From: Allohoeflea poritis | Lineage (GTDB): Bacteria; Pseudomonadota; Alphaproteobacteria; Rhizobiales; Rhizobiaceae | Length of the DNA stretch: 64,000 nucleotides | Assembly (NCBI RefSeq): GCF_027889715.1 | Contig: NZ_JAPJZH010000005.1 | Span: forward strand, 248,001-312,000 | Reading direction: 5' to 3' | In this document: positions 1 to 15,950 of the stretch, piece after piece | Position numbering within the stretch: position 1 is the stretch's first letter | How the letters are laid out: every line of letters begins with the position of its first letter | The notes under the pieces: generated by a model | What the model was told of the DNA's origin: nothing | Seen by the model: the letters and a program-made list of their open reading frames with translations, nothing else | The model's database searches: none | Translations under genes and position numbers: made by a program

Positions 1-552
1 ATGAAGGCGCGGCGGTTCTTCGAGAAACTGGAAGCGCTGTACGGCGATGAGCAGGCGCGCCTCAACGAGCTCGACGCGGCGATTGGCGACGGCGATCACG
101 GCAGCACCATGCTGCGCGGGCTGTCGGCTGCCGTGAAGGCCGGCGACGGGTCGCAGGCCAAGGCGTTCATGCGGGCATCCGGCGGCGCCTCGGGAACGCT
201 GTTCGGCCTGATCCTGCATGAGATCGAACTGCATCTTTCGGGCAGCGAGAGGTCCCTGGCCGCTCACCTCGGGCGCAGTCTGCAGCGCATCAAGGAACTG
301 GGCAAGGTTGCTGCCGGAGACAAGAGCATGGTTGACGCCCTGGAGCCGGCCGTGGCGGCGCTCGATGCCGGCGGGGGCACAAGCGACGCGGTTTCTGCCG
401 CTGAAGGCGGGCGCGATTCAACCCGCGACATGGCAGCGCGCCGGGGCCGCGCCCGCTATGTCGAGAATGCCGGCAAGGGACATGTGGATCCCGGCGCCGC
501 GTCGGTGTGCCTGATCCTCGGCGTGCTGGCCGGCGAGGAGGAGGCGCGGTGA
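1..552 (+). CDS. dhaL: Dihydroxyacetone kinase L-subunit (DhaL, nucleotide-binding phosphatase-fold domain)
   Basis: This is the nucleotide-binding subunit of a dihydroxyacetone-type kinase, which works with DhaK to phosphorylate a terminal hydroxyl next to a ketone. The family's Mg-ATP/ADP-binding motif DAAIGDGDHG lies at residues 25-34, with the conserved ASGGASGTLFG and GDKSMVDAL segments and a C-terminal GHVDPGA. At 183 residues it is a little shorter than E. coli DhaL (about 210). The window opens exactly on an ATG, so a few N-terminal codons may lie upstream. The stop overlaps the dhaK start (GTGA), which implies translational coupling. DhaM is not visible here, so whether the phosphate donor is ATP or PEP cannot be read from this window. 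Confidence 0.88.
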   Translation: MKARRFFEKLEALYGDEQARLNELDAAIGDGDHGSTMLRGLSAAVKAGDGSQAKAFMRASGGASGTLFGLILHEIELHLSGSERSLAAHLGRSLQRIKELGKVAAGDKSMVDALEPAVAALDAGGGTSDAVSAAEGGRDSTRDMAARRGRARYVENAGKGHVDPGAASVCLILGVLAGEEEAR

Positions 553-1559
553 AGAAACTCTTCAACAGCCAGGAAACCATGGTCGATGACATGATCGACG
601 GTTTTGTCGCCGCCCATCCGCAGGTTGCGCGCGGCAAGAACGACAAGCGCGTTGTCGTGCGCCGGAAACCGAAGAACAAGGACAGCAAGGTGACACTGCT
701 GATCGGCAACGGTTCCGGACACGAGCCGATCGCCATGGGCTTCGTCGGCGAGGGGCTGCTTGACGCCAATGTGGTCGGCGATGTCTTTGCGGCGCCCTCG
801 GCGGATCTGATCCTTGACGGAATAACGGAAGTCTGCGGAGCGGCCGGATCCATCCTGCTGATCTCCCAGCATTCCGGCGATGTGATCAATGGCGGCGCGG
901 CCGCAATGCTGGCCGAAGAGGCCGGCCACACGGTCAAGCCACTATTCATGTATGACGATATTTCCTCGGCCCCCAAGGGCGAGGAAGCGGAGCGGCGTGG
1001 CGCGCCCGGCACCATGTTCATCTACAAGATCCTCGGGGCGGCAGCGGAGGAGGGCATGGCGCTGGGGCCGCTCCTGGAACTGGGCGAGGCGGTGCGCGAC
1101 GGCACCCGGACGCTGGCGGCGGCGGTCAGCCCCGGGATTTCGCCGCTCACCGGACAGGCGATGTTCTCGCTGCCCGAAGACGAGATTTATCTGGGCATGG
1201 GCGTTCATGGAGAGCCGGGCATCGGCAAGGCCAAATACGGCCCGGTGTCGCGGCTGGTCGAAACCATGGTCGCCGCATTGCTGGAGGACAGACCCGTCCC
1301 GGAGGGCGAGCGGGTCGCCGTTATCGTCAACGGCATGGGCGGCACCACGCTGATGGAGCTGCTGACCGTCTATCGGGAAACCGGAAGGGCGCTTGCATCG
1401 CGCGGTATCTCGACGGTGGCGCCGATGGTCGGCACTTATGTGACGACGCAGGAAATGGGCGGTTTCTCGATCTCGCTGCTGACGCCGACCGACGAAATGT
1501 TGCGCTTGTGGTGCGCGCCGTCCGACACGCCGCATTTTCCGGCAATCAAACTGGACTGA
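549..1559 (+). CDS. dhaK: Dihydroxyacetone kinase K-subunit (DhaK-type ketose kinase)
   Basis: Substrate-binding subunit of a DHA-type kinase, 336 residues. The start chosen is GTG at 549: it overlaps the dhaL stop, is preceded by a purine-rich GAGGAGGAGG ribosome site, and gives the family N-terminus VKKLFNSQE. The motif GNGSGHEP and the GMGVHGEPG segment are present; His220 in the latter is the residue that forms the covalent hemiaminal with the substrate ketone in this family. Relatives phosphorylate dihydroxyacetone or four-carbon ketoses such as erythrulose. The neighbouring aldolase and isomerase suggest that the substrate here is a longer ketose phosphorylated at C1, which is an inference. 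It lies in an operon with dhaL, the aldolase and the aldehyde dehydrogenase. Confidence 0.9.
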   Translation: MKKLFNSQETMVDDMIDGFVAAHPQVARGKNDKRVVVRRKPKNKDSKVTLLIGNGSGHEPIAMGFVGEGLLDANVVGDVFAAPSADLILDGITEVCGAAGSILLISQHSGDVINGGAAAMLAEEAGHTVKPLFMYDDISSAPKGEEAERRGAPGTMFIYKILGAAAEEGMALGPLLELGEAVRDGTRTLAAAVSPGISPLTGQAMFSLPEDEIYLGMGVHGEPGIGKAKYGPVSRLVETMVAALLEDRPVPEGERVAVIVNGMGGTTLMELLTVYRETGRALASRGISTVAPMVGTYVTTQEMGGFSISLLTPTDEMLRLWCAPSDTPHFPAIKLD

Positions 1560-1572
1560 GCGGAGTCGCGAT

Positions 1573-2490
1573 ATGGGTCAGAAAAAACCAGAACCGCAAA
1601 TGCCCATGTACGGCGTTGCCGTCGATCAGGGCAGCGGTCTGGGCGCGGCGATTGCAGAGGCGCGCGGCTCCGAAGCGCGCGAAACCGACCTGTTCGACTT
1701 CAAGAAGGCCGTGGTGGAGTGCCTGAGCCGCGATGCCTCAGTTCTGCTGGTCGATGCCGAGTATGGCCGCGAGCTTCTGCCGCATTTCAATCCGGCCTGC
1801 GAAAAGCTGCTGGCCTACGAGGCCGATGTCTACCGTATCGCGACCAGCGAGCGCATCACCGTGCTTCCCGACAATCTGAGCGTTGCCGATTATGCGGGGC
1901 TGGGTGTGCGCCGGCTGAAATTCTTTCTCTATTACGCGCCGCGCGGCTCGGCGGAAACCAATGAAAAGAAGCACGGTCTTGTGCGCGATATCGGCCGGCA
2001 ATGCGCCGATCACGGTATCGAGTTCCTTTTCGAGCCGATCGTCTATGACGAGACGGTGACGGATTCCACATCGCTGGAATTTGCGCGGCTGAAGCCGGAT
2101 CTGGTGCGCGAAGCGACCGCGATCTACGCCGATCCAGACTTCGCGGTGGACGTTCTGAAAGTGGAAATCCCTGTCAATCTGGCCTTCGTGGAAGGCTTCG
2201 GCAGCGGCGAATTCGATCGCGGCTGGGCGCTCGATTGTTTCCGGCAAGCCGCGGCCGCGGCAGGTCCCATACCCCTCGTCTATCTGAGCGCAGGCGTTTC
2301 GTTCGACTGGTTCGAGCAATCCTTGAGACTGGCGCGCGAGGCCGGTGTCAACGCGGCCGGTTTCATGTGCGGGCGGGCGATCTGGTCGGATGCGGTGGCC
2401 GAGTTCGGCCATGGCGGCCATGCGCGGCTCACCGAATGGCTGACGGGTGAAGGCCGTCGGCGACTTGAACGGCTGAAGGCGGCGCTATGA
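1573..2490 (+). CDS. LacD/YihT-family class I aldolase (DUF2090-like, tagatose-bisphosphate aldolase family)
   Basis: A 305-residue beta/alpha-barrel aldolase of the LacD family (COG3684), whose known members cleave tagatose 1,6-bisphosphate or 6-deoxy-6-sulfofructose 1-phosphate to dihydroxyacetone phosphate plus an aldehyde. The segment VLKVEIPVN carries Lys196, the expected Schiff-base lysine, and FEPIVYDE and AGVNAAGFMCGRAIW match the phosphate-binding end of the barrel. It starts 13 bp after dhaK and its stop overlaps the next gene by ATGA. The context (ketose kinase before, aldehyde dehydrogenase after) supports cleavage of a ketose 1-phosphate to DHAP and an aldehyde. The exact sugar cannot be read from the sequence. 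Confidence 0.82.
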   Translation: MGQKKPEPQMPMYGVAVDQGSGLGAAIAEARGSEARETDLFDFKKAVVECLSRDASVLLVDAEYGRELLPHFNPACEKLLAYEADVYRIATSERITVLPDNLSVADYAGLGVRRLKFFLYYAPRGSAETNEKKHGLVRDIGRQCADHGIEFLFEPIVYDETVTDSTSLEFARLKPDLVREATAIYADPDFAVDVLKVEIPVNLAFVEGFGSGEFDRGWALDCFRQAAAAAGPIPLVYLSAGVSFDWFEQSLRLAREAGVNAAGFMCGRAIWSDAVAEFGHGGHARLTEWLTGEGRRRLERLKAAL

Positions 2491-3959
2491 CAGACCTGAT
2501 TCCCCTGTTGCCGGATGTCGAAGCCTTTCTGGAAGGCCCGCTGTCGCTGCGGATCGGCGGCGGGAAAATCGATACGGCGGGCAGTATCGAAGTCACAGAT
2601 CCGTCTTTCGGAACGCCCCTGTGTACGGTCGCGAAGGCTGGCGCGGCAGAAGTCGATCTTGCCGTGGCGGCTGCCGCCGAGGCCTATGAGGGGCCATGGT
2701 CGTCCATGACGCCGGATGAGCGCTCGCAGCGCATCTGGCGCCTTGCCGAACTGGTCGATCAACGGGCCGAAATCTTTGGCCAGCTCGACGCGCTGGACAA
2801 TGGCAAGCCCTTTGCCGTGGCACGCGACGTGGACGCCGCTTATTCGGCGCGGCATTTGCGGTACTTCGCCGGCTGGCCGAGCAAGATCGAGGGCGCGACA
2901 ATCCCGGTTTCGGTGCCGGACAGGTTCAACTATACGCGGATCGAGCCGGTCGGCGTGTGCGGCCTGATCGCGCCCTGGAATTATCCGTTGCTGATGGCGG
3001 TCTGGAAGATCGCCCCGGCGCTCGCCGCCGGCAATGCGATCGTCATGAAACCGGCGGAACAGACGCCGCTTAGTGCGCTTTACCTCGCCGACCTCGCGCT
3101 CGAGGCGGGGCTGCCAGAGGGGGTTCTCAACGTCATACCGGGGATCGGCACGGAAGCCGGCGCAGCCCTTGCCGGTCATCCCGGCGTCGGCAAGATCGGT
3201 TTTACCGGAAGCACGGCGACAGGCCGGCGCATCGTCGAAGCCTCGATGGGCAATCTGAAGAAGGTTTCGCTGGAACTCGGCGGCAAGGCGGCGAACATCG
3301 TCTTTGCTGATGCCGATCTCGAAAAGGCGGTTGCGGGTGCCTTCTGGGCGCTGTTCGGCAATAACGGGCAATCCTGCACGGCCGGGGCGCGGCTTTATGT
3401 GCAGCGGCCTGTCTACGACAAGGTGGTTGAAGGGCTGGCCGAACTGGCGGCCGGCGTATCGGTCGGACCGGGCATGGCCGAGGCGGCCCATGATCTCGGG
3501 CCGGTGATCAGCGAACGGCAGATGCAGACGGTCACGGGTTATATCGACAGCGGTCTCTCCGAGGGCGCGGAGTGCATTGCAGGCGGTGGCCGGGTGGGTG
3601 CGGCAGGCTATTTCGTCGCGCCGACGATCCTGATCGGCGTGACCGACACGATGCGCGCTGCCCGCGAGGAGATTTTCGGGCCGGTTCTGTGCGTCCTGCC
3701 CTTCGATGACGAAGCCGAAGTGATCGCCCGCGCCAACGATACGGATTATGGGCTGGCGGCAGGGCTTTGGACGCAGGATGTCACCCGCGCCCGTGTCTTG
3801 GCCGAACGGCTCAAGGCCGGGACGATCTGGATCAATTGCTGGGGCGAGACGGACGCCGCCTCGCCCTTCGGCGGAATGAAACAGAGCGGCTACGGCCGCG
3901 AAATGGGAGCCGACGCCATCGCCCTCTACTCGCAGACCAAAAGCGTTTGGGTGGTTTGA
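2487..3959 (+). CDS. NAD(P)-dependent aldehyde dehydrogenase
   Basis: A 490-residue aldehyde dehydrogenase with full-length family architecture. LELGGK carries the general base Glu263 and GQSCTAG carries the catalytic Cys297; PWNYPL, FTGSTATG and the C-terminal PFGGMKQSGYGRE are also present. It starts at the ATGA overlap with the aldolase stop, so it belongs to the same transcript and is probably coupled in translation. In this context it most likely oxidises the aldehyde released by the LacD-like aldolase (for example lactaldehyde, glycolaldehyde or acetaldehyde) to the acid. That substrate assignment is inference; the family itself is clear. Confidence 0.92.
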   Translation: MTDLIPLLPDVEAFLEGPLSLRIGGGKIDTAGSIEVTDPSFGTPLCTVAKAGAAEVDLAVAAAAEAYEGPWSSMTPDERSQRIWRLAELVDQRAEIFGQLDALDNGKPFAVARDVDAAYSARHLRYFAGWPSKIEGATIPVSVPDRFNYTRIEPVGVCGLIAPWNYPLLMAVWKIAPALAAGNAIVMKPAEQTPLSALYLADLALEAGLPEGVLNVIPGIGTEAGAALAGHPGVGKIGFTGSTATGRRIVEASMGNLKKVSLELGGKAANIVFADADLEKAVAGAFWALFGNNGQSCTAGARLYVQRPVYDKVVEGLAELAAGVSVGPGMAEAAHDLGPVISERQMQTVTGYIDSGLSEGAECIAGGGRVGAAGYFVAPTILIGVTDTMRAAREEIFGPVLCVLPFDDEAEVIARANDTDYGLAAGLWTQDVTRARVLAERLKAGTIWINCWGETDAASPFGGMKQSGYGREMGADAIALYSQTKSVWVV

Positions 3960-3990
3960 CATGCCGCATTCGGTCATACAAATTGGTATG
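3956..3990 (+). promoter_or_regulatory. Candidate promoter and operator before the GntR/UTRA regulator
   Basis: A TTGACA hexamer (3956-3961) overlaps the stop codon of the aldehyde dehydrogenase and is followed 15 bp later by TACAAA as a possible -10. Over the latter sits a perfect inverted repeat, CATAC-N6-GTATG (3975-3990). A 15-bp block inside it (3976-3990) matches 12 of 15 positions with a block upstream of the transporter operon at 6344-6358. This suggests an autoregulatory operator for the adjacent repressor. Confidence 0.5.
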
Positions 3991-4014
3991 CAACGAATGA
4001 GGGAGGCCTGATCC

Positions 4015-4752
4015 GTGGAAGCGCGTGCGGAACCGAAATACAAAGTCGCCTATGGCGCATTGCTCAGCCGCCTGGTGTCGGGGCGCTACCCGATCGGCGG
4101 GCGGCTGCCGACAGAGGACGAACTGGCCCGGACCTTCGACATCAGCCGGGTCACCATCCGCCGCTCGCTCGACATGCTGGTCAATGAGGGTTTCCTGGAG
4201 CGCAGGCAGGGCAGCGGCTACACGGTCATTTCCCTGTCGCCGCCCTCGTCCATGTGTCTTTCGTCCTTTACCGACGCCATGCTGCGCGCCGGGCGCGAGC
4301 CGTCTTCACGGCTCATCCGTATCTCGACGCTGGAAGCCGGTGCCCATGGCGAGGAACTGATCGACGAACTGCGGGATGAGCGGCTGACCTGCATCGAGCG
4401 CCTGCGCCTTGTCGATAACGAGCCGCAGATGCTGGTGCGGACCTGGGTGCCGGCACGGCTGCTGGCAAACGCGTCAGCCGATGATTTTCCCGGTACGGGT
4501 CATGAGCAGTCGATCCTGCGCATATTGCGGCAGCGCTTCGGCCTCGAATGGAACGCCGCCTGCGAAGATATCAGCCCGGCCGGCGCGCCGGCGGATGTGG
4601 CGCAATATCTGCAGATCGAACCGGGCCGCCCGCTGCTGGTGCAGGCCTGCACCGCCTTCGACGAGGACGGCAGCGTCGTGTTCTATGAACAGGTCTACCG
4701 GATCGGCAAGGTCAGTTTCAATCTCACGGGAGCCTCGCGAGAGGTGCGTTAG
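4015..4752 (+). CDS. GntR-family transcriptional regulator, HutC/UTRA type
   Basis: A 245-residue regulator with an N-terminal winged helix (residues about 8-75; KVAYGALLSRLVSGRYPIG, then the recognition region TFDISRVTIRRSLDML and the wing LERRQGSGYTV) and a C-terminal UTRA ligand-binding domain ending in VFYEQVYRIGKVSFNL. The start is GTG at 4015, placed 8 bp after GGGAGG. UTRA domains usually bind sugars, sugar phosphates or small acids and release DNA on binding, so it is the probable repressor of this cluster. The perfect inverted repeat just upstream and the related sequence before the ABC transporter are its likely operators. Confidence 0.9.
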   Translation: MEARAEPKYKVAYGALLSRLVSGRYPIGGRLPTEDELARTFDISRVTIRRSLDMLVNEGFLERRQGSGYTVISLSPPSSMCLSSFTDAMLRAGREPSSRLIRISTLEAGAHGEELIDELRDERLTCIERLRLVDNEPQMLVRTWVPARLLANASADDFPGTGHEQSILRILRQRFGLEWNAACEDISPAGAPADVAQYLQIEPGRPLLVQACTAFDEDGSVVFYEQVYRIGKVSFNLTGASREVR

Positions 4753-4765
4753 CAGGAGTGTGGCG

Positions 4766-6193
4766 ATGCAGGAAGCGGTAACGGTCGGCGTCATTCATGC
4801 TTCGCTGCCGAGCTATTTCCCGGACCGGCACCGTGTCTTCGAAGATTGCGGGCGGGTCCTCGAAGAGCTGTGCGCCGGCGAAGGCGCGCGCGTCGTGACG
4901 GCGCCGGAGCGGCCGATGAACGGATCGGAAGCACGCCGGGCCGCCGAATTCTGCCTGGCCGAGGGCGCCGATTTCCTACTGCTCATCCATGGCGGCTTTA
5001 CCATGGGCGATGTCGCGCACACGCTGGCCACCATTCCGGTGCCGATGGGCGCCTGGGCGACGCCGGAGCCGACCCTTGAGGGCGATATCCAGCTCAACAA
5101 TTTCGTCTCGCTCAATATGACGATGTCGATTGCCAAGGGCGTGCGCGATCTCAGGCAGAATCCCATTCAGTGGTATTTCGGCGCACCGGAAAGCGCCGAA
5201 TTGCAGCAACGTCTGCGAACCACGCTGCGGGCGCTTGCCATGCTCAAGGGCGTTACGCATACGCGGTTGGCGCTGATCGGCGGGCTGGCGCCGACCTTCT
5301 ACAATATGGAGGTCAGCGCGGGCACGCTCAAAAGGCGGTTCGGCATCGATGTCGACGCCCATGAGATTGCCGAGCTGACCGGGCGCATGGCGGCAATCGA
5401 TGCATCGCAGGCCGCGGCCGAAGTCGAGAAAATGGCGGCGGCGGCGACCGTCCGGGATGTCAGCGATGAGCAGCTGACGCTGAACGCAAAGGCGGCGCTT
5501 GCCCTGCGCGACATCTGCGACGATGGCGGTTATACGGCGCTTGCGGTCTCCGACTGGCCGGCGCTTCAGGTCGATCCGGGCATCCATCCGGGCGCTGCCT
5601 TTTCCTGGCTGGAGGAGATCGATGGCGTGCCGGTTGCCTCCGAAGGGGACCTCCTCGGCGCCGTCACGCAGCTTGCGGCGAAATCCATGACCGGGAAGGT
5701 GGGATATCTTCTCGACATGACCGAGCCGGATCTTGAAAAGGGCGATTTGCTGATGTGGCACGGCGGCGGCGGGCCGCTCTATCTGGCGGACGACAATGGC
5801 GCTGCCTGGATCAATCATCCGATGATCGGGCGCGGCACGGAAGCCGGGGCCTGCTACGGAACGATCAGCGACCTGGTTTTCCAGGACGGTCCGGTGACCG
5901 CCATGCGAGTGGCCGACGACGTGACGACGCTGTTCGAAATGGAAGCGCGCGTGGCCGGGCGTCAGCCGAGCGGCTTTACCGGCTGCCGGGGCTGGTTGCG
6001 GGACTTTTCGGTCGGCGGTCAGGCGGCGTCGCTCGAGGATGTGGTGACCACGGTGATGGGACACGGGATCGAACATCATTTTGTCCTCGTGCCCGGACAT
6101 CATCACGAAGTGCTGATGGAGTTCGCCGGCTGGGCAGGCCTGCGGCCGCTTGAGCGGATCGCGGCGCGGCGGCACTTGATTACGGGGTCCTGA
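4766..6193 (+). CDS. L-fucose/L-arabinose isomerase-like protein (COG2407 family)
   Basis: A 475-residue member of the fucose-isomerase superfamily. The start is ATG 4766 with AGGAG at 4754-4758. In the family, aldose-ketose isomerisation uses a metal held by Glu, Asp and His in the C-terminal half; candidates here are Glu293 in ASEGDLLGA, Asp295, His332 in MWHGGGGP and the His445-447 cluster in VPGHHHEV. The N-terminal half carries HGGFTMGD, typical of the family's open alpha/beta domain. It follows the regulator by 13 bp and precedes the transporter. The same family includes sulfoquinovose isomerases of the sulfo-transaldolase route, so the substrate could be a pentose, a 6-deoxy sugar or a modified hexose. 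I infer that it supplies the ketose for the DhaK/DhaL kinase. Confidence 0.8.
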   Translation: MQEAVTVGVIHASLPSYFPDRHRVFEDCGRVLEELCAGEGARVVTAPERPMNGSEARRAAEFCLAEGADFLLLIHGGFTMGDVAHTLATIPVPMGAWATPEPTLEGDIQLNNFVSLNMTMSIAKGVRDLRQNPIQWYFGAPESAELQQRLRTTLRALAMLKGVTHTRLALIGGLAPTFYNMEVSAGTLKRRFGIDVDAHEIAELTGRMAAIDASQAAAEVEKMAAAATVRDVSDEQLTLNAKAALALRDICDDGGYTALAVSDWPALQVDPGIHPGAAFSWLEEIDGVPVASEGDLLGAVTQLAAKSMTGKVGYLLDMTEPDLEKGDLLMWHGGGGPLYLADDNGAAWINHPMIGRGTEAGACYGTISDLVFQDGPVTAMRVADDVTTLFEMEARVAGRQPSGFTGCRGWLRDFSVGGQAASLEDVVTTVMGHGIEHHFVLVPGHHHEVLMEFAGWAGLRPLERIAARRHLITGS

Positions 6194-6334
6194 ACGGCCG
6201 ACGGAGCGGTCTTCGGGAGACGGATACTGAATGCGGCAAATGGTTGGATTCGCGGCGGAATTGGCATCGCCGCGATGATCGGGAGAATGGCTGTCCGGGG
6301 CGTCCCGGCAGCCGGTTTGGATGGAACGAATTTG

Positions 6335-6363
6335 TTGACATCAATGCAAATTGATATTACTCA
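6335..6363 (+). promoter_or_regulatory. Candidate promoter with overlapping operator for the ABC transporter operon
   Basis: TTGACA at 6335-6340 is followed after 17 bp by a weak -10 (TACTCA). A perfect inverted repeat ATCAAT-GCAA-ATTGAT occupies 6340-6355, so it overlaps the -35 and spacer. The block at 6344-6358 matches the operator before the GntR gene at 12 of 15 positions. A second spaced repeat, GATAT-N13-ATATC, follows. This region is locally AT-rich against GC-rich surroundings. Confidence 0.55.
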
Positions 6364-6461
6364 TTTTGTTATATCAAATTTTGGTTGGGAGGACCTGGTG
6401 CAGTCAGAGTTTGAGCCGAAACGGCGCATCGATCTTCGCCGCCAGAGACGGCGGTGAAGCG

Positions 6462-7517
6462 GTGACACAGGTTCAGCTTCGGGCCGTCAGGAAGGAGTTT
6501 GGTTCCTTCGTCGCGCTCGAACATATCGATCTGAATATCGCATCGGGCGAACTAGTTGCGCTGCTCGGCCCGTCGGGCTGCGGCAAGACGACGACCCTGC
6601 GCATGATTTCCGGCCTCGACAATCCGACCAATGGCGAGATCCTGTTCGACGGCAAGGACGTGTCGGAAGTGCCGGTGCGCGACCGCAATGTCGGCATGGT
6701 CTTCCAGCGTTACGCGCTTTTTCCGCATATGAATGTGGAAAAGAACATCACATTCGGCCTGCGCGTGCGCAACGTGTCCCCGGAAGAGGTCTCGGAACGT
6801 CTTGAAGAGATCCTCGACATCGTCCAGCTTACGCAATTCCGTCACCGGTTTCCGGCGCAGCTCTCCGGCGGGCAGATGCAGCGCGTCGCCATAGCCCGCA
6901 CGCTGATCACCAAGCCCTCTGTGCTGATGATGGATGAGCCGCTGGCCAATCTGGATACCAATCTGCGCGGCGAGATGCGGCGCTTTATTCGCGATCTGCA
7001 GCAGCGCTTCAATATAACGACCATTTTCGTCACCCACGATCAGGTGGAGGCGATGGAGCTGTCCGACCGGGTGGCCGTACTGTTCGACGGACGGCTGGAG
7101 CAGTTCGACACGCCCGATGCGATCTACCACCGGCCGGACAAGATCAGCGTCGCGAAATTCATGGGCGCGTCCAATATTTTCGAATGTACCGTCGCCGACG
7201 GGATGATCAAAGCCGGCTTCGCGGATCTCGCGGCGATAGGGACACAGGCTTTCGCCCAGGGCGAGCGAGCGGATGCCATGGTCCGCAGCGAGGCGATCCG
7301 GTTGCTCAAAGAGCCGCAGGATGGCGCGGCAAACCAGGTCGAAGGCGAAATCCGCACGGCAGATTTTTTTGGCGCCACTGTTTCCTACACGGTGCAGGTG
7401 GGCGAGCATGAATTGAATGTCGACGAGCATTCGACGGAAAAGCTGGAGACGGGCAGCAGGGTATTCCTGCAGCTTCCGGGCGACCGGATCTGGCTGTTTC
7501 CGAAACGGGCCAACTAA
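6462..7517 (+). CDS. ABC transporter ATP-binding protein (MalK/UgpC-like)
   Basis: A 351-residue ATPase that powers import by the adjacent permeases. Walker A is GPSGCGKTTT, the signature is LSGGQMQRVAIA, Walker B is VLMMDEPLANLD and the switch histidine is in FVTHDQVEAM. A C-terminal TOBE-like domain follows. The start is placed at GTG 6462 because VTQVQLRAVRKEFG matches family N-termini. There is no strong ribosome site directly before it; the strong GGGAGGA at 6387-6393 instead precedes a short reading frame (GTG 6398 to TGA 6457) that ends 4 bp upstream, so translation may be coupled to that leader. The operon continues with the binding protein and two permeases. Confidence 0.88.
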   Translation: MTQVQLRAVRKEFGSFVALEHIDLNIASGELVALLGPSGCGKTTTLRMISGLDNPTNGEILFDGKDVSEVPVRDRNVGMVFQRYALFPHMNVEKNITFGLRVRNVSPEEVSERLEEILDIVQLTQFRHRFPAQLSGGQMQRVAIARTLITKPSVLMMDEPLANLDTNLRGEMRRFIRDLQQRFNITTIFVTHDQVEAMELSDRVAVLFDGRLEQFDTPDAIYHRPDKISVAKFMGASNIFECTVADGMIKAGFADLAAIGTQAFAQGERADAMVRSEAIRLLKEPQDGAANQVEGEIRTADFFGATVSYTVQVGEHELNVDEHSTEKLETGSRVFLQLPGDRIWLFPKRAN

Positions 7518-7560
7518 GTGAACCGGTGGCGCGAACGCCGCCAAAACTGGGAGGAATGGC

Positions 7561-8928
7561 ATGACTGGATTAACGAAGGCCGCGTTGCGCAAGGGTCTCA
7601 TGACGGCAGGCGCGCTGGTGTTGACGACGGCGCTGGCGCATGGCGATGAGGCGGCGGAACAGTTCCGCGCCGATTTTCTCGACGGCAAGCTGAGCTGGGA
7701 AGACGTCTCCAAGCGGGCCGCCGATGAAGGCAAGGTCAATTTCTACTACTGGGGCGGCAGCGACACCATCAATGTGTGGATCGACAGCGTTGCGGCTCCG
7801 GCCATGAAGGAACTGGGCGTTACGCTCAACCCGGTCCGCATCACCAACACCAAGGACGCGATCGACCTGGTGCTGGCGGAGAAGAACGCCGGCAAGGGCG
7901 TCGGCGCGGGCAGTGTCGACGCCATCTGGGTCAATGGCGAGAACTTCTACACGATGAAGCAGCAGGACGCGCTGTTCGGCTCTTTCGCACAGAAGGTTCC
8001 GAATGCCGCCAATTTCGACTGGAATCCGGACGATCCGCGCTCGCTGCTTAACCTGCGCGATTTCGGCGTCGTCACCGACAGCAAGGAAATCCCGTGGTCC
8101 GGCCAGCAATATGTCTGCGCCGTCAACCGGCAATATGTCGACGCCGCCGACACACCCTCGACCTTCGAGGACATGAAGGCATATCTGGAAAAGAACCCCG
8201 GCAAGTTCACCTATGTGAAGCCGCCGCACTATATCGGCAACACATTCGTGCAGTCGGTCATGTATGCGTTCAACCCGGACGGCAATGGCGGCGTCCCGTT
8301 CCAGCAGTCGATTGACGATCTGGGCGCTGCCGAACTTGCCCGACTGATCAAGCCGGGCATGGAGTATCTGAAGTCCATCGAGCCGATGCTGCTCGGCGCC
8401 GATGGCGGCAAGGCGCGTTATCCGGAGGACATCGCGGCCCTTGACGGCCTGTTCCTCAATGGCGAGGTCTACTTCAACTGCAAGTTCGGCCTTTATGCGG
8501 TGCATACCGGTCTGCAGACCGGTGCCTATCCGGAAAAGGCGGAGGCCTTCATCTTCCCGAAGGGCCTGATGATCGCCAACAAGAACTATCTCGCCATTCC
8601 GGCCAACAGCCCCAATCCGGCAAGCGCGCTGCTTCTGGCGAACTACATGGCTTCCGTCGATTCGCAGGCCTCCAAGCTCGAAAATGCCGGCATGCCGGTC
8701 GGCATCGATGTCTGGAAACTGTCGGCGGACGATGCCTCCATGGTCCAGAAGGCCGCGCCGCCGCTCTATGGCGTGACCCAGGCCGATCTCGACGCCAATG
8801 TCGCGCCTGACACCAATGCCAGCCTCGTCGACGTGATCGAAGGCACATGGCTTGAATATATCGAGCGCGGATCGTCCTCGTCGATCGAAGAGATCGTCGA
8901 TACGATGGTCAAGCAGATGGCGCAGTAG
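7561..8928 (+). CDS. ABC transporter substrate-binding protein, YnjB family (COG4134)
   Basis: A 455-residue periplasmic solute-binding protein. An N-terminal signal peptide (KAALRKGLMTAGALVLTT, then ALAHG) directs export. The mature part carries YnjB-like segments: YYWGGSDTINVWID, GVTLNPVRITNTKDAI and VDAIWVNGENFYTMK. YnjB-type proteins are widespread, but their ligand is not established. The ATG follows GGGAGGAATGGC. The neighbouring isomerase, kinase and nucleoside-hydrolase genes suggest a sugar or nucleoside ligand, which is inference. Confidence 0.87.
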   Translation: MTGLTKAALRKGLMTAGALVLTTALAHGDEAAEQFRADFLDGKLSWEDVSKRAADEGKVNFYYWGGSDTINVWIDSVAAPAMKELGVTLNPVRITNTKDAIDLVLAEKNAGKGVGAGSVDAIWVNGENFYTMKQQDALFGSFAQKVPNAANFDWNPDDPRSLLNLRDFGVVTDSKEIPWSGQQYVCAVNRQYVDAADTPSTFEDMKAYLEKNPGKFTYVKPPHYIGNTFVQSVMYAFNPDGNGGVPFQQSIDDLGAAELARLIKPGMEYLKSIEPMLLGADGGKARYPEDIAALDGLFLNGEVYFNCKFGLYAVHTGLQTGAYPEKAEAFIFPKGLMIANKNYLAIPANSPNPASALLLANYMASVDSQASKLENAGMPVGIDVWKLSADDASMVQKAAPPLYGVTQADLDANVAPDTNASLVDVIEGTWLEYIERGSSSSIEEIVDTMVKQMAQ

Positions 8929-8937
8929 CAGCCAACA

Positions 8938-8961
8938 GCGCCGCCGGTTCGCCGGCGGCGC
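8938..8961 (+). promoter_or_regulatory. Strong intercistronic hairpin with UUCG loop
   Basis: A perfect 10-bp GC stem (GCGCCGCCGG / CCGGCGGCGC) closed by TTCG begins 9 bp after the binding-protein stop. No T-run follows directly, so it is more likely an mRNA-stabilising or processing hairpin, which would raise expression of the binding protein over the permeases, than a full terminator. Confidence 0.65.
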
Positions 8962-9020
8962 CCTGATTTCCGCGTCCGCCGGGATTGGCGGCCCGTTTTA
9001 CTCGTTTTTTGCACGGACCC

Positions 9021-9950
9021 ATGGCAACCCAGGACACAGCCCTCGATACCCGTTCGGGCCGGCGGTCGACCGCGCAGCGCAACGCCCTTTTTCTGCGTAT
9101 CGCTGAGCTCGCGCCGATCGTCATCGTGCTCTTCGTGCTGTTCGGCGGCGCGCTGGTCCTGGCGCTGCTGCAGAGCCTTGGCTTCGCGCCGTGGTTCGGC
9201 ATCAATACATTTCCCGACTTCTCCTATTTCGGGGCGCTGTGGGGATCGTCCGCCTTCTGGGTCTCGCTCGGCCTGACGCTCTATTACGGCCTGGTTTCGA
9301 CAATCATTGCGCTGATCATGGCGATCGTGCTCAGCCTCGCGCTGATCAAGCCGTTCCGCGGCAAGACGCTCTACAAATATCTCTACAAGCTGCCATTGAT
9401 GATTCCCTATACGGTCGGTATCGCGCTGGCCGTTCTGATGCTTGGCAATGGCGGCATCCTGTCGCGCCTGATGGCGCTGGTCGGCATGATCGACAACCCC
9501 GGCGATTTCCCGCAAATCCTCAAGACCCACTACGGCTGGGGTATCATTGCGGTCTATGTCTGGAAGCAGGTGCCGTTCATGACGCTGGCCATCTATGCGG
9601 TGCTGCTGGGCATCGGCCGCGAGACGGAAGAGGCGGCGGCGATCCTCGGCGCCACCCGTCGGCAGATCTTCTTCTCCGTCACGCTGCCGCAGATCCTGCC
9701 GGGTATCGTCTCATCAACCCTGATCTGTTTTGCCTTCAATGTCGGCGCATTCGAGGCGCCGTTCATTCTCGGCGGCGGTTATCCGGACACGCTTCCCGTG
9801 GTCGCCTGGCGCTATTTCAACGACGCCAACTACGCCTTCCAGCTCCAGGGCATGGCGACGGTGGTTTCCATCGGCATTGTCGCGGGCGTCATCCTGTTTG
9901 CGTATCTCGCCGTCTACCGGCGCTATGAGCGCATGCGCGGGAGGGCGTGA
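9021..9950 (+). CDS. ABC transporter permease, first subunit
   Basis: A 309-residue inner-membrane permease of the BPD (MetI-like) type with about six membrane segments, the first near residues 25-50 (APIVIVLFVLFGGALVLALL). The EAA loop that contacts the ATPase is present as EEAAAILGATRRQIFFSVTLPQ. The start at ATG 9021 is the first one compatible with a normal cytoplasmic N-terminus; a TTG at 8985 is an alternative. In E. coli YnjC the two permease halves are fused, whereas here they are separate genes. It couples the YnjB-like binding protein to the ATPase. Confidence 0.87.
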   Translation: MATQDTALDTRSGRRSTAQRNALFLRIAELAPIVIVLFVLFGGALVLALLQSLGFAPWFGINTFPDFSYFGALWGSSAFWVSLGLTLYYGLVSTIIALIMAIVLSLALIKPFRGKTLYKYLYKLPLMIPYTVGIALAVLMLGNGGILSRLMALVGMIDNPGDFPQILKTHYGWGIIAVYVWKQVPFMTLAIYAVLLGIGRETEEAAAILGATRRQIFFSVTLPQILPGIVSSTLICFAFNVGAFEAPFILGGGYPDTLPVVAWRYFNDANYAFQLQGMATVVSIGIVAGVILFAYLAVYRRYERMRGRA

Positions 9951-9951
9951 G

Positions 9952-10809
9952 ATGGCGCGCAAGGCAACAAACACCTTCACGCATCTGTCGCCCTTCCAGC
10001 GTTTTTATCTGGTCGCGGTCGCGGCGCTGATTGTCGGGCCGTTCCTGCCGCTGATTATCCAGAGTCTCGCTTTCCGCTGGGCCTGGCCCAATCTCCTGCC
10101 GACGGTCTGGTGGATGGAACAGCGCGAGCGTTCGCCCATACCACTTGCCTGGGACTATGTGCTTTCGCCGTATTCGCGGGTCTATGAGGCGACGTTCAAC
10201 ACGATGGTGATCGGCATCGCGGTGACGGTCATCTGCCTGGCGATTTGCCTGCCTGCGGCGCGGGTCCTGGCGCGCGAGAGTTTCAGGGGCAAGAACAGCT
10301 TCGAGTTCTTCCTGTCGCTGCCGCTGATCGTGCCGGAGGCGGCGATCGGTATCGCGCTGTTGATGATCTTCATCAATCTCGGCCTTGCCGGCAGCTATGT
10401 CGGTATCATCATCGCCCATTTGATCCCGACCATCCCCTACATGGTGCGCATGCTGACGGCGGTCTATCAGGGGCTGGGGCGCGAATTCGAGGAACAGGCG
10501 ATGATCCTCGGCGCCAGCCGATGGCAGATCCTGCGCATGGTGACGCTGCCCATGCTGATGCCCGGCGTGGTGGCCGGCGCGCTGTTCACCTTCCTGGTCT
10601 CGAGCAACATCTTCCTGCTCACCTTCTTTCTCGGCCAGGGCAAGATCATCACCTTGCCGACCTTGCTGTTCTCCAAGATTTCCGGCGGAACGCTGGACGC
10701 CTCTGCGGCCGGCATCACGCTGATCGTCTCGTTGCCGGGCATCATTCTGCTGATCATCTCGGAGCGGTTCATCAAGGAAGAGGCGTTCGGCAAGGGCTTC
10801 GGAAACTAA
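9952..10809 (+). CDS. ABC transporter permease, second subunit
   Basis: A 285-residue BPD-type permease with about six membrane segments and the EAA motif EEQAMILGASRWQILRMVTLPM. The start is ATG 9952, 1 bp after the previous stop and 6 bp after GGGAGGG. It forms the second half of the membrane channel with the preceding gene. The pair corresponds to the two halves of YnjC. Confidence 0.88.
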   Translation: MARKATNTFTHLSPFQRFYLVAVAALIVGPFLPLIIQSLAFRWAWPNLLPTVWWMEQRERSPIPLAWDYVLSPYSRVYEATFNTMVIGIAVTVICLAICLPAARVLARESFRGKNSFEFFLSLPLIVPEAAIGIALLMIFINLGLAGSYVGIIIAHLIPTIPYMVRMLTAVYQGLGREFEEQAMILGASRWQILRMVTLPMLMPGVVAGALFTFLVSSNIFLLTFFLGQGKIITLPTLLFSKISGGTLDASAAGITLIVSLPGIILLIISERFIKEEAFGKGFGN

Positions 10810-10855
10810 CACCATCCGCCATGCGGCGAACCAGACGGCAGAAAGGCCGGGACCC

Positions 10856-11959
10856 ATGAAAACACCCGATCATATTCTTGAGCGTTTTCCCAAGCTCAGC
10901 GATGCCGAAATGAAAGCGCGGCTGGAACACCCCGGCAAGCCGGCCCGTGTCATAATCGACACCGACGCCGCGAACGAAATCGACGATCAGTTCGCCATTG
11001 CCTGGGCGCTGCTGTCGCCCGAGCGGCTGCATCTGGAAGGCGTGACTGCGGTGCCGTTTTCATTCCAGCACCACCGCGATGCGATCATCGAGAGCGTGAA
11101 CCATTTGCGGGAAGGGCGCTCGGCAGACGACGACAAGGTCGGCAGCCTGCGCGGCTGGGCGGAACGGGTAATCGCCGCCGGCCGCAAGGCCGAAGACATC
11201 AAATTCGTCGCTCCCGACGAGGGCGCCGAGCTTTCCTACGAGGAAATCTTGCGGGTCTATGAAGAATGCCGGATCTCGCCGGACGGCAAGGTGTTTCGCG
11301 GATCGCCCGGTTACCTGACATCGCTGGAAGAGCCGATCGCTTCGCCGTCCGCGGATTTCATCATCGAACGGGCCCGGGCCAATCCGGGCGAGCTGCTCTA
11401 CATCTGCGCCATGGGCGCGGTGACGAATATTGCCTCGGCGTTCCTGATGGCGCCGGACATCATCCGCAATGTCGTGGTGATCTGGACATCGGCCTATCCA
11501 AGCCACTCGCCGCACTGCAACGCGCCATCGCTCAACCTGGTGCAGGACACGCTGGCCTCGAGCCTGATCTTCGATTGCGGCGTGCCGCATATCTACCTGC
11601 CCGGCTATTTCGTCGGGGCACAGCTCAAGATGTCGCTGCCTGAGATGGAGCGTTTCGTCCACGGCAAGAGTGCGATCGCCTCCTATCTGCACCATCTCTA
11701 CACACACAATCCGCTGCATGAGATGTTCGCGATCACCGATCCGGAAGAGCGCAGCTGGGTGTTGTGGGACCTGATCGACATCGCCTGGCTGTTCGATCCC
11801 GAATGGGTGCCGACCATGCTCGTGCGCTCGCCCGTGCTGGACGACGATCTCTACTGGCAGCATCCGGAGGGCCGCCACCTGATGCGGGAGGCTTATGACG
11901 TCAATCGCGATGCGATCATGATGGACCTTTACCGGAAACTTGAGGCGGCGCCGGACTGA
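10856..11959 (+). CDS. Nucleoside hydrolase-family protein (inosine/uridine-preferring type)
   Basis: A 367-residue protein of the nucleoside N-ribohydrolase fold, which binds Ca2+ through an aspartate cluster and cleaves the N-glycosidic bond of nucleosides. The metal motif is DTDAANEIDD at residues 35-44; it has two extra residues compared with the canonical DTDPGIDD, a variant that also occurs in bacterial members. MGAVTNIASAF and NAPSLNLVQD match family core segments, and WDLIDIA stands where the usual C-terminal HDP aspartate motif lies. It is the last gene of the transporter operon (46 bp after the permease), suggesting that the imported compound is a nucleoside or another N- or O-riboside. 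Confidence 0.78.
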   Translation: MKTPDHILERFPKLSDAEMKARLEHPGKPARVIIDTDAANEIDDQFAIAWALLSPERLHLEGVTAVPFSFQHHRDAIIESVNHLREGRSADDDKVGSLRGWAERVIAAGRKAEDIKFVAPDEGAELSYEEILRVYEECRISPDGKVFRGSPGYLTSLEEPIASPSADFIIERARANPGELLYICAMGAVTNIASAFLMAPDIIRNVVVIWTSAYPSHSPHCNAPSLNLVQDTLASSLIFDCGVPHIYLPGYFVGAQLKMSLPEMERFVHGKSAIASYLHHLYTHNPLHEMFAITDPEERSWVLWDLIDIAWLFDPEWVPTMLVRSPVLDDDLYWQHPEGRHLMREAYDVNRDAIMMDLYRKLEAAPD

Positions 11960-12054: not shown

Positions 12055-12738
12055 ATGCCCAAGGAAACACCATCAAATGCCGCGCTGGAGCAGATCAGCC
12101 AGCGCCGGTCGAAGACGCTGAGCACGATCGTTTGCGAGGCGATCGAGGCGATGATCATCTCTGGAGAGCTGGAGGCCGGCGATCGCATCAATGAAAGCTC
12201 GCTTGCCGGCCGCCTCGGCGTCAGTCGCGGGCCGATCCGGGAAGCCTGCCGAAGCCTCGAACAGGCGGGTCTGCTCGTCAGCGCCACCAATCACGGCATG
12301 TATGTGCGGGAAATGACGCTCGACGAGGCGCGCGACCTTTACGAAGTCCGTGGCGCCCTTGCCGGCCTCACCGGACGGCTCATTGTCGAGCGGGCCAGCG
12401 ATGCAGTACTGCAAAAGCTCCAGAAACTGGTAGATGACATGGATGTCGCGGCGCGTGAGGAGAACGTTTCGAGCTACTATTCGCTCAATCTTGAATTCCA
12501 TGATTCCCTTGTCGATGCGGCGCAGAACCCGGCCCTTGAACAGAGCTACCGACGGATCGTCAACCAGCTGCACCTGTTCCGCCGTCGCGGGCTTGTCCAG
12601 AAAGGCAATCTCGCCGTCTCCAACAAGGAGCACCGGGCAATTATCAAGGCGCTGCTCGCCCGCGACCTCGAAGCCGCCGAGACCGCCATGCGGGCGCATG
12701 TCGCCGGCGGCTGGGCGCGCATGTCCGCACCATCCTGA
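12055..12738 (+). CDS. GntR-family regulator with FCD domain
   Basis: A 227-residue regulator with a winged-helix domain (residues about 22-85; GELEAGDRINESSLAGRLG then VSRGPIREACRSLEQAG) and an all-helical FCD domain. FCD proteins bind a divalent metal and an organic acid through Asp/His ligands; LEFHDSLVDAA, NKEHRAIIKAL and MRAHVAGG supply the expected histidines. It sits just upstream of a tripartite tricarboxylate transporter, and the two promoters share a palindrome. It is therefore probably an acid-responsive repressor of the tct operon that also controls itself. Confidence 0.9.
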   Translation: MPKETPSNAALEQISQRRSKTLSTIVCEAIEAMIISGELEAGDRINESSLAGRLGVSRGPIREACRSLEQAGLLVSATNHGMYVREMTLDEARDLYEVRGALAGLTGRLIVERASDAVLQKLQKLVDDMDVAAREENVSSYYSLNLEFHDSLVDAAQNPALEQSYRRIVNQLHLFRRRGLVQKGNLAVSNKEHRAIIKALLARDLEAAETAMRAHVAGGWARMSAPS

Positions 12739-12798
12739 CCAACACCGACCGATGCGGATTCCGGTTGCCGGAATGCAGGCGCGATGATTGAAAACTAA

Positions 12799-12833
12799 AA
12801 ACTGTTGACAGTTTACAGTTTGTGAATTAACGT
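12799..12833 (+). promoter_or_regulatory. Promoter and operator of the tct operon
   Basis: A perfect 7-2-7 palindrome AAACTGT-TG-ACAGTTT lies at 12799-12814 and contains a TTGACA -35 (12805-12810); a weak -10 (TAACGT) lies 17 bp later. A third half site (ACAGTTT) follows immediately. The core matches the palindrome before the FCD regulator gene. Confidence 0.6.
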
Positions 12834-12891
12834 CTGATCCCATGGACGGTCTCGGCGCCCAGCGTCGGGCCGAGATTTCCGGGAGGATCGA

Positions 12892-13848
12892 ATGACTATC
12901 TTGCGCATGGCGGCGCTGGCCGCATCCACACTCGTATTGACGGCCGGCCTGGCTGTCGCCAATGACTACCCCTCGCAGCCGATCGAGGTTGTCACGCACG
13001 CATCGGCCGGTGGCGGCACGGACACGACGGCCCGCACCTTGTTGATCCGGGCACGCCGTGAATTGAAGGTCGATGCCTTCGTCCAGATCAAGAAGGGCGG
13101 CGGCGGAACCGTGGCGATGTCCTACGCAGCCGGTAAGCCCGCCGACGGGCATACGCTGATGGCGATCACGCCGACCCATCTGATCACCATGGCTCGCGGC
13201 CGTGCGCCGATCAGCATCGACGATATCAAGGGCGTGGTGCGTTCGACCGACGATCCCATCATTGTGGTGGTCAACAAGAAGTCGGGCATCGGTTCTCTCG
13301 ACGATCTGAAGTCGATAAGCGAGAAGGCTCCGATCAAATGGGGCGGCACGCAGGCCGGCGGCATCGATCATATCGCCGCGATCACCTTCTCCAAGAAGTC
13401 CGGCATCAAGCTTGCCTATGTGCCTTTCGACGGCGGTGGCGCGATGATCACCAACCTGATGGGTGGCAATATTCAGGCTGCTGGGCTGAATTACGGCGAG
13501 GCCGTCGACGGCATCGAATCTGGCGATTTCGTGCCGCTCGCGGTGATGGCCGACAAGCGTCTGGCTGCCCTTCCCGACACACCGACGCTCGCCGAGCTCG
13601 GTATCGACGGTGTCAATTTCTCCACCGTTCGCGGCATCATCGTAATGGCCGATACACCTGACGAAAGGGTTGCCGTGCTTGAGGAGAAACTGCTGAAGGC
13701 GATGAGCCACGGCACCTATCAGGCATATCTGTCCGGCATCGGCCTGGACGCTTCGTCGGTCGGCGATGCGCAGGAATGGGACGCCCAGATCCGTTCCATG
13801 TACGCCAATATCTACGACACGCTCGAAGAGCTGGGCCTGCGCAAATAG
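12892..13848 (+). CDS. tctC: Tripartite tricarboxylate transporter substrate-binding protein (TctC/Bug family)
   Basis: A 318-residue periplasmic binding protein. The signal peptide covers residues about 1-23 (LVLTAGLAVAND). Bug-family features are YPSQPIEVVTHASAGGGTD at the mature N-terminus and the IKWGGTQAGGIDH segment in the ligand cleft. TctC captures carboxylates such as citrate and delivers them to TctA/TctB. GGGAGGATCGA precedes the ATG. It is the first gene of tctCBA, under the palindrome-bearing promoter. Confidence 0.9.
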   Translation: MTILRMAALAASTLVLTAGLAVANDYPSQPIEVVTHASAGGGTDTTARTLLIRARRELKVDAFVQIKKGGGGTVAMSYAAGKPADGHTLMAITPTHLITMARGRAPISIDDIKGVVRSTDDPIIVVVNKKSGIGSLDDLKSISEKAPIKWGGTQAGGIDHIAAITFSKKSGIKLAYVPFDGGGAMITNLMGGNIQAAGLNYGEAVDGIESGDFVPLAVMADKRLAALPDTPTLAELGIDGVNFSTVRGIIVMADTPDERVAVLEEKLLKAMSHGTYQAYLSGIGLDASSVGDAQEWDAQIRSMYANIYDTLEELGLRK

Positions 13849-13908
13849 TCGAAAACAACTGACGGGATGCGCGTCCTGCGCGCGTCCCCGTGGCTGGGAG
13901 GTGACGTC

Positions 13909-14367: not shown

Positions 14368-14379
14368 AGGGAGGCGACC

Positions 14380-15891: not shown

Positions 15892-15950
15892 ATAACGATC
15901 ATCCACGAAACGAAACCTGCCCTGTGGGCTACCGAGAAGGATCACACCCG

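Follow-up and report, generated by a model that had tools for sequence, protein, structure and literature searches.

A conserved, apparently co-regulated operon of Allohoeflea poritis with a possible role in pentofuranoside catabolism

A stretch of 64,000 nucleotides from Allohoeflea poritis (contig NZ_JAPJZH010000005.1, positions 248,001 to 312,000), referred to below as the window, opens within a gene cluster that a preliminary description had read as a complete ketose 1-phosphate style catabolic route. The window begins at C50:248001 of the 5.58 Mb genome, and the operon starts about 4 kb 5′ of it. All genes at window positions 1-11959 are on the + strand with spacings of -4 to 92 bases, the exception being 268 bases ahead of the gene of the ATP-binding cassette (ABC) importer ATPase. 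The gene families named in the preliminary description, their positions and their common strand were borne out by profile matches and open reading frames. The route was not complete as claimed, since the operon extends upstream, where an epimerase gene and a module of coenzyme A (CoA) ligase, thiolase-like and DUF35 genes lie outside the window. We conclude that the system is a real, conserved and apparently co-regulated catabolic operon of about 15 genes. Its upstream genes are given in the coordinates of the upstream locus L002, from which the window position is obtained by subtracting 14000; DHA stands for dihydroxyacetone.

L002 9909-11078, upstream of the window: thiolase-like gene
L002 11072-11473, upstream of the window: DUF35 gene
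L002 11460-13118, upstream of the window: AMP-forming CoA ligase
L002 about 13168-14004, upstream of the window, its end overlapping DhaL by 4 bases: TIM-barrel ketose 3-epimerase
1..552, +: DhaL, ATP-binding subunit of a DHA-kinase-type kinase (PF02734, 107 bits)
549..1559, +: DhaK, ketose-binding subunit (PF02733, 323 bits)
1600..2490, +: class I (LacD/DeoC-type) aldolase (NF009498, 247.5 bits, cut-off 184)
2487..3959, +: aldehyde dehydrogenase (PF00171, 570 bits)
4015..4752, +: GntR-UTRA regulator (PF07702 and PF00392)
4760..6193, +: aldose-ketose isomerase-like protein, a relative of SftI (NF048012, 99.9 bits, cut-off 700)
6462..7517, +: ABC importer ATPase (PF00005 and TOBE_2)
7561..8928, +: YnjB-type solute-binding protein (NF008633, 276 bits, cut-off 203)
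9021..9950, +: ABC permease 1 (open reading frame and conserved order, no family scan)
9952..10809, +: ABC permease 2 (open reading frame and conserved order, no family scan)
10856..11959, +: nucleoside-hydrolase-like protein with a DTDAANEIDD motif (PF01156, 62.9 bits, cut-off 34.2)

The isomerase was used to scan one genome per species, which gave 30 loci; the presence of each gene was scored by tblastn, and additional genes were called with a codon-usage caller. By tblastn the CoA ligase was found in 29 and the thiolase-like gene in 28 of the 30 loci, the DUF35, UTRA, DhaK, DhaL, epimerase and ATPase genes in 27 each, the hydrolase and the binding protein in 26 each, the aldolase and each permease in 25, and the aldehyde dehydrogenase in 14, one of them (L062) unrelated; a few of the matches counted are weak paralogues (L064, L074), and some loci are truncated at contig ends. 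Gene order was counted at an E-value of 1e-30 and an identity above 38%, a filter that loses most DUF35 matches. Under this filter the order was kept in 21/30 loci, 13 of them full with the aldehyde dehydrogenase and 8 without it, while 3/30 carried the CoA module on the opposite strand and 6/30 were partial. Such a recurrence in 21 of 30 loci of other genomes is more than chance. The linkage of isomerase, DHA-kinase-type kinase and class I aldolase, on which the earlier proposal hung, was thus checked and found in other genomes.

The carriers are mostly Alphaproteobacteria, an exception being Granulosicoccus, a gammaproteobacterium, and include Nitratireductor, Ruegeria, Marinovum algicola, Alexandriicola marinus, Hoeflea halophila, Silicimonas and Halovulum marinum. 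Judged by their names, many of these genera are presumably marine, and algal hosts appear among the names too. The system is patchy rather than common, since the isomerase matched 46 of 297 genomes of the family at an E-value of 1e-10, only 8 of them (own genome included) at an identity of at least 57%, and an even class-wide sample of 385 genomes gave 3 with a hydrolase and 2 with an aldolase match, own genome counted. In a plasmid search, matches at 53-59% were obtained in Marinovum algicola (another strain of the species already among the loci), Paracoccus seriniphilus and Parasedimentitalea marina; the plasmid search with the aldolase otherwise returned mostly enterococcal and lactococcal LacD.

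The palindrome AATTTGTATNNACAAATT was found 5′ of the thiolase-like gene and 5′ of the epimerase gene, with a looser copy 5′ of the ABC genes. Only two sites in the whole genome match with 0-1 mismatches, namely AATTTGTATTGACAAATT 5′ of the thiolase-like gene and AATCTGTATTTACAAATT 5′ of the epimerase gene. The looser site lies in the window:

6363..6380, no strand: third operator-like site, ATTTTGTTATATCAAATT, 5′ of the ABC genes

This third site has more than 3 mismatches to the pattern of the genome search and so falls outside its matches; at up to 3 mismatches the search gave 6 forward and 5 reverse matches, compared with 1 and 1 for the reversed pattern. Across the 30 loci, 75 palindrome sites were counted when no more than one mismatch was allowed in the arms; mononucleotide shuffles, which ignore AT-rich intergenic gaps, predict 18. 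The ATPase gene is preceded by 23 of the 75 sites (in 21 loci), the epimerase gene by 21 (in 18 loci) and the thiolase-like gene by 5 (in 5 loci), and the other 26 lie elsewhere. For most loci the retrieved DNA ends at or short of the region 5′ of the CoA module, or of its major facilitator superfamily (MFS) gene, where sites are therefore invisible. The CoA, sugar and importer/hydrolase modules look like one regulon, and the GntR-UTRA protein is the presumed reader of the shared operator.

For residue comparisons, the loci L034, L035, L037, L038 and L040 (same genomes as L048, L049, L058, L052 and L068) and fragments below 85% of the query length were left out; the alignment of the thiolase-like protein has 30 rows, 29 of them distinct, one genome appearing twice as L036 and L078. 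A function of this protein as a thiolase was rejected, as Gly stands for the Cys, Tyr for the His of EVHD and Ala for the His of GHP in 30/30 rows. Moreover, Tyr285 in a YDxY motif is present in all 30 rows. In Sal (YDCY) and Ltp2 (YDHF), which both have DUF35 partners, the Tyr of this motif is the base (PMC12329534). The DUF35 gene of the operon adjoins the thiolase-like gene (PF12172 at 21.9 bits, slightly under the cut-off of 23.2), and the CoA ligase has acetate-CoA ligase as its best curated match (346 bits, under the cut-off of 729). The thiolase-like protein probably works like an aldolase, yet we do not class it as Sal or Ltp2.

The epimerase scored 203 bits with NF051856, under the cut-off of 300, and its PDB matches are D-psicose, L-ribulose and D-tagatose 3-epimerases. 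Four residues that we take to be its metal ligands are kept in 31/31 sequences. A ribo-configured aldose gives a 3R ketose, and the fructose-like form is 3S,4R, presumably the one used by the relatives of the operon aldolase. On this textbook stereochemistry, a 3-epimerase would be useful for sugars of the ribose type, and less so for those of the glucose type. The assignment of the isomerase to COG2407 is a matter of resemblance: PF02952 gave no match, and the best models, NF048012 for SftI (99.9 of 700 bits) and PF24856 (20.2 bits), both remained under their cut-offs, the former by far. Its residues E294, D318 and H438, which presumably occupy the metal-ligand positions of the isomerase superfamily, were invariant in 8 sequences, the window's included.

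The kinase has Dak1 and Dak2 domains above cut-off, while the DHA-specific equivalogs were missed (TIGR02363 at 298 of 406 bits for DhaK, TIGR02365 at 120 of 138 bits for DhaL). DhaK His219, presumably the covalent His, is invariant in 31/31 sequences, and the Asp of the aligned GD pair (alignment to 4lrx), taken to be catalytic, is invariant in the consensus. In all 31 sequences FAAP and S105 take the place of FTSP and a Lys of E. coli DhaK, which we believe to hold or face DHA; a literature search found no paper on those DHA-facing residues. Because they have changed, the substrate of DhaK may be a ketose larger than DHA. That DhaK/DhaL is an ordinary DHA kinase appears very unlikely; its DHA would be set free from a ketose without phosphate by an aldolase, or from a branched acid such as apionyl-CoA by the CoA-dependent aldolase. 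It would agree with the retention of the presumed catalytic residues and with the absence of any other Dak1 match from the genome, but the pocket residues that presumably face DHA are altered in 31/31 sequences, the presumed phosphate Arg of LacD is kept in the aldolase, and the isomerase and epimerase would be left without a clear task. The branched-acid version can further draw on Ltp2, known for the retro-aldol reaction of a β-hydroxyacyl-CoA bearing the ring C17-OH (PMC12329534).

The aldolase reaches the PRK12858 subfamily score and keeps Lys196, Glu154, Ser239 and Arg268 in 27/27 sequences (numbered from base 1573). We take these residues to be the dihydroxyacetone phosphate (DHAP) end of LacD, with Lys196 as the Schiff-base and Arg268 as the DHAP-phosphate residue. 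The Arg of the DQR motif of LacD, which presumably holds the second phosphate of tagatose bisphosphate, is replaced by Gly20 (Gly in 27/27), and the lacD equivalog TIGR01232 was missed (190 of 432 bits). With the DHAP end kept and the DQR Arg lost, the predicted products are DHAP and a phosphate-free aldehyde. The best NCBIfam models of the aldehyde dehydrogenase were phenylacetaldehyde dehydrogenase and betaine-aldehyde dehydrogenase, both under their cut-offs, and the gene lies within the operon in 13/30 loci, that is, it is an optional member. The ketose 1-phosphate logic put forward earlier gains from the gene linkage and from the presumed DHAP-end residues of the aldolase, and loses from the aldehyde dehydrogenase, present in the operon in those 13 loci only.

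A paralogous, sulfo-Embden-Meyerhof-Parnas (sulfo-EMP)-like cluster lies about 70 kb away on the same contig (L042, C50:170700-190600). It comprises a PfkB-type kinase (best model ribokinase), a LacD-type aldolase over the subfamily cut-off, an SftI-like isomerase (290 of 700 bits), a MocA-type dehydrogenase, a GntR-type regulator, an L-sulfolactate-dehydrogenase-like gene (186 of 500 bits) and a SAF and UxaA-like pair that is SuyA/SuyB-like by eye, the best model of the larger member being galactarate dehydratase (133 of 731 bits). No 3-epimerase of the operon type was found in the stretch read. The locus L092 resembles L042, and the isomerase-aldolase pair also occurs in L044, L045, L046 and L047. 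Relatives of the operon isomerase and aldolase (27% and 33% identity) thus stand beside a PfkB-type kinase and sulfolactate-type genes, which would suit a sulfosugar route in which the operon is a sulfo-EMP relative with a swapped kinase. We regard this as highly improbable, as the neighboring cluster may already fill that role and has neither epimerase nor hydrolase of the operon type in the stretch read, and no sulfonate-handling gene was recognized in the operon; the assignment of the neighboring cluster itself comes mostly from scores under curated cut-offs.

The hydrolase model has a predicted local distance difference test score (pLDDT) of 89, and the best 50 PDB matches listed were all nucleoside hydrolases; their template modelling scores were 0.53-0.63 when normalized to the query and 0.60-0.77 when normalized to the target. 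By its PF01156 score, its fold and its Asp cluster the protein is nucleoside-hydrolase-like, as the preliminary description had it. In RihA, O5′ of the ribose is bound by Asn158 and Glu164 (PMC2898832). At these two positions the operon hydrolase has Pro219 and Ser225 in 29/29 sequences, while Asn227 is the kept counterpart of RihA Asn166. The sugar side chain was reported to be hydrogen-bonded in 19/19 complexes of nucleoside hydrolases, compared with 4/45 of MTAN and 1/21 of MTAP (PMC12648331). Because the O5′ ligands of RihA are lost, the sugar may be without an ordinary 5-OH, and the sequences hint at a 5-deoxy or 5-substituted riboside as substrate. Furthermore, Trp304-Asp305 is aligned to the His-Asp pair of nucleoside hydrolases in the single printed alignment reaching there. 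With Trp in place of the His before the last catalytic Asp, the leaving group is suggested not to be a classical base. The model of the binding protein (pLDDT 69) matched many sugar, polyamine and other binding proteins, and the ligand could not be read from it.

Several neighborhoods of hydrolase genes were recorded as well. In L039 (12474-16670) a glycine-betaine-type ABC transporter (binding protein PF04069, two subunits by eye) adjoins the hydrolase gene. Two relatives of the NEIDD type lie elsewhere: one (L090 6742-7671) behind an apparent sugar-type ABC importer, the other (L091 7672-8604) away from any such cluster in a small genome of 1.6 Mb. A nucleoside-phosphorylase-like protein with weak DeoD/HpnG matches is encoded near the cluster in L036 (14529-15290), L053 (710-1471) and L077 (19640-20407).

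These features bear on the substrate. Plain ribonucleosides or ribose could be degraded through ribulose, xylulose and xylulose 1-phosphate to DHAP and glycolaldehyde, which would continue to glycolate and glycolyl-CoA, the latter being joined to an aldehyde by the thiolase-fold aldolase. The fold of the hydrolase, the ketose 3-epimerase and the phosphorylase-like genes of L036, L053 and L077 speak for such a route. It is nevertheless unlikely in our view, given the missing O5′ ligands in 29/29 hydrolases and the Trp304-Asp305 pair (single alignment), and the CoA-dependent aldolase would have no clear use.

The loss of the O5′ ligands also fits the disposal of 5′-deoxynucleosides (5′-deoxyadenosine or methylthioadenosine) by an alternative DHAP shunt that would lead via acetaldehyde or methylthioacetaldehyde to acetyl-CoA or methylthioacetyl-CoA. 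The closest model of the ligase, acetate-CoA ligase, points the same way, and the known shunt likewise yields DHAP and an aldehyde (PMC10986504, PMC6079011). This route is quite unlikely, however: a separate mtnA above cut-off is present in the same genome, the kinase and aldolase of the operon differ from those of the known shunt, and acetyl-CoA or methylthioacetyl-CoA offers a retro-aldolase nothing to cleave. A plain disposal of 5-deoxyribose, as suggested earlier, or of methylthioribose would leave the CoA module and the separate genomic mtnA unexplained.

A substituted riboside that would occupy the CoA module is an arsenosugar. In this case 5-deoxy-5-dimethylarsinoyl-ribofuranosides would give DHAP and dimethylarsinoylacetaldehyde, then dimethylarsinoylacetate and its CoA ester, and finally acetyl-CoA and dimethylarsinate. 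The arsenosugar studied in PMC6656958 is such a 5-deoxy-5-dimethylarsinoyl ribofuranoside; according to the same source, people excrete arsenosugars as dimethylarsinate and as thio forms of dimethylarsinoyl-ethanol and -acetate, by degradation steps that it calls unclear. The lost O5′ ligands and the marine and algal host names of the carriers fit, and an As-OH β to the thioester would be something for the aldolase to act on. An MFS gene lies 5′ of the CoA module in 15/30 loci, and its product matches the ArsK model in 15/15 of them (a second model in 6/15); ArsK was not among the matches listed for seven other MFS-type proteins, including those of L051, L053 and L078 (for two of the seven, the best 25 models). 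In L036 (7425-8900) the isomerase gene is adjoined by a MIP channel (PF00230), a low-molecular-weight phosphatase/ArsC-like gene (PF01451) and an ArsR-like open reading frame recognized by eye. On the other side, the ArsK scores are low, with 89 and 73 bits for the two proteins with printed values against a cut-off of 400, a stronger match (150 bits, still below cut-off) is encoded on another contig of the A. poritis genome, the cluster of the window has no such MFS gene, and those of L051, L053 and L078 carry a lactate-type MFS gene in its place. Among the flanking genes read, arsenic-type genes were recognized beside L036 only, and arsenosugars are probably trace compounds. We consider an arsenosugar substrate very unlikely indeed, and there is just a slim chance that the operon is the missing bacterial arsenosugar route, comprising a furanosidase, a DhaK-type ketopentose kinase, a LacD-type aldolase and a thiolase-fold cleavage of the C-As bond of the CoA ester.

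The explanation that we prefer, at about an even chance, is that the operon is a regulon for pentofuranoside catabolism in mostly marine Alphaproteobacteria. Gene content, synteny, the shared operator and the residue losses were observed, and the reactions, their order, their stereochemistry and the substrate are proposed from them. The YnjB-type ABC importer would take up a furanoside, whose glycosidic bond would be split by the nucleoside-hydrolase-like enzyme to release a ribo-configured pentose, probably without an ordinary 5-OH. The SftI-like isomerase would convert the pentose into a ketose, and the TIM-barrel 3-epimerase would turn the ribulo into the xylulo form, whose fructose-like geometry LacD/YihT-type aldolases could use. 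After phosphorylation at C1 by DhaK/DhaL, the LacD-type aldolase would give DHAP and an unphosphorylated two-carbon, possibly substituted, aldehyde, to be oxidized to the acid by an aldehyde dehydrogenase encoded in or outside the operon. The CoA ligase would then activate an acid, and the thiolase-fold/DUF35 pair would carry out a retro-aldol-type cleavage rather than thiolysis.

Two sister clusters, L041 (4050-10646) and L102 (8959-18433), contain a YnjB-type importer, a 30-32% related isomerase and a LacD-type aldolase, with an arabinofuranosidase-type gene in place of the hydrolase. The L041 gene matches PF06964, the C-terminal domain of alpha-L-arabinofuranosidases, at 55 bits, and its L102 counterpart shares 69% identity with it. 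L041 has the epimerase and DhaL/DhaK genes in the same run, and the genome of L102 has them at a separate locus (L101). This swap of the hydrolase supports a modular furanoside-to-DHAP route. No CoA module turned up in the searches of L041 and L102, and the module is therefore suggested to serve a special aldehyde or aglycone of the operon studied here.

Several observations weigh against pentofuranoside catabolism by this scheme. The loop with Pro219 and Ser225 was modelled at a block-mean pLDDT of only 59-68, and Ser225 could still contact O5′. The isomerase is far under the equivalog cut-off of SftI (99.9 of 700 bits). In the thiolase-like protein the third motif residue varies across the 30 rows (23 Ser, 6 Ala, 1 Pro); the corresponding residue is Cys in Sal and His in Ltp2, and a change to Ser in Sal left no detectable activity (PMC12329534). 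As the essential Cys of Sal is Ser, Ala or Pro here, the proposed cleavage chemistry is uncertain. LacD is absent from 5/30 loci: L049 has the hydrolase, isomerase, regulator and CoA module without kinase, aldolase and importer, L050 has the isomerase and CoA module only, in L055 DhaK is directly followed by the isomerase, LacD being skipped, L064 is essentially the isomerase alone, and L074 is without importer, aldolase and hydrolase. From these partial loci the modules appear separable.

The reduced cluster of L074 consists of the UTRA, isomerase, epimerase, DhaL and DhaK genes with no adjoining aldolase, and genes for 2-oxoacid dehydrogenase E1 alpha and beta (7217-9209) lie directly 5′ of it. 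At the other end of the operon of A. poritis, 3′ of it, the window carries at 12055-17399 a GntR-FCD regulator and, by eye, a TctCBA-type transporter and an MmgE/PrpD-type gene. These were rejected as operon members, the FCD gene being found in 1/30 loci (28% identity), and TctC and MmgE in 0/30.

Judging by titles and the starts of abstracts, no paper listed by searches of an open-access full-text library describes a pathway with this gene set, in agreement with the preliminary description. The operon probably serves the uptake of a sugar conjugate and its breakdown to central metabolites with an as yet undescribed set of enzymes. If so, marine bacteria, often ones associated with algae, would possess a new route for carbon. 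It would be a ketose 1-phosphate pathway that runs on a DHA-kinase-type enzyme, receives its sugar from a nucleoside hydrolase that has become a furanosidase, and is coupled to a CoA-dependent thiolase-fold aldolase, a class known mainly from steroid breakdown. It would also assign a substrate to the YnjB-type importer, left unnamed by the models used, and the identity of the riboside would reveal a compound on which the carrier bacteria live. Since the gene set is compact and conserved, each claim is testable with purified enzymes.

The proposed route resembles the L-fucose, L-rhamnose and D-arabinose pathways in its isomerase, C1 kinase, aldolase yielding DHAP and an aldehyde, and aldehyde dehydrogenase. 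Those pathways use an FGGY kinase and a class II aldolase, whereas the operon has a Dak kinase and a class I DeoC/LacD aldolase and adds a 3-epimerase, a hydrolase and the CoA module. With the DHAP shunt it would share the conversion of a 5-substituted ribose to DHAP and a substituted acetaldehyde, if the O5′ argument is right. It differs from the shunt in that isomerization would precede phosphorylation, in having its own importer and operator, and in its unrelated kinase, isomerase and aldolase families (DhaK/DhaL and DeoC/LacD instead of MtnK-type and class II); an MtnA-type isomerase is not found in the operon, and the only mtnA match of the genome is on contig C33. The isomerase and aldolase families are common to the operon and sulfo-EMP (isomerase, PfkB kinase, LacD/YihT aldolase), from which the operon departs by DhaK/DhaL in place of PfkB, the 3-epimerase, the furanoside hydrolase and the CoA module.

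The individual proteins have known counterparts as well. The thiolase-like protein shares with the Sal and Ltp2 steroid aldolases the thiolase fold, the Tyr of YDxY/F and the neighboring CoA ligase, has a putative DUF35 partner as they do, and has Gly for the nucleophilic Cys; its third motif residue, mostly Ser or Ala, is unlike their Cys and His, and its setting is sugar breakdown. IpfF/IpfD/IpfE of ibuprofen breakdown are presumably a comparable thiolase-fold aldolase/DUF35 system. The hydrolase has the fold and Asp cluster of RihA together with Asn227 (Asn166 in RihA), and is set apart by DTDxANEIDD with two extra residues, the lost O5′ ligands and Trp304 before Asp305. Finally, LerK and DerK are DhaK-type ketotetrose kinases, acting on a ketose larger than DHA; in contrast to them, the DhaK-type enzyme of the operon would act on a pentulose.

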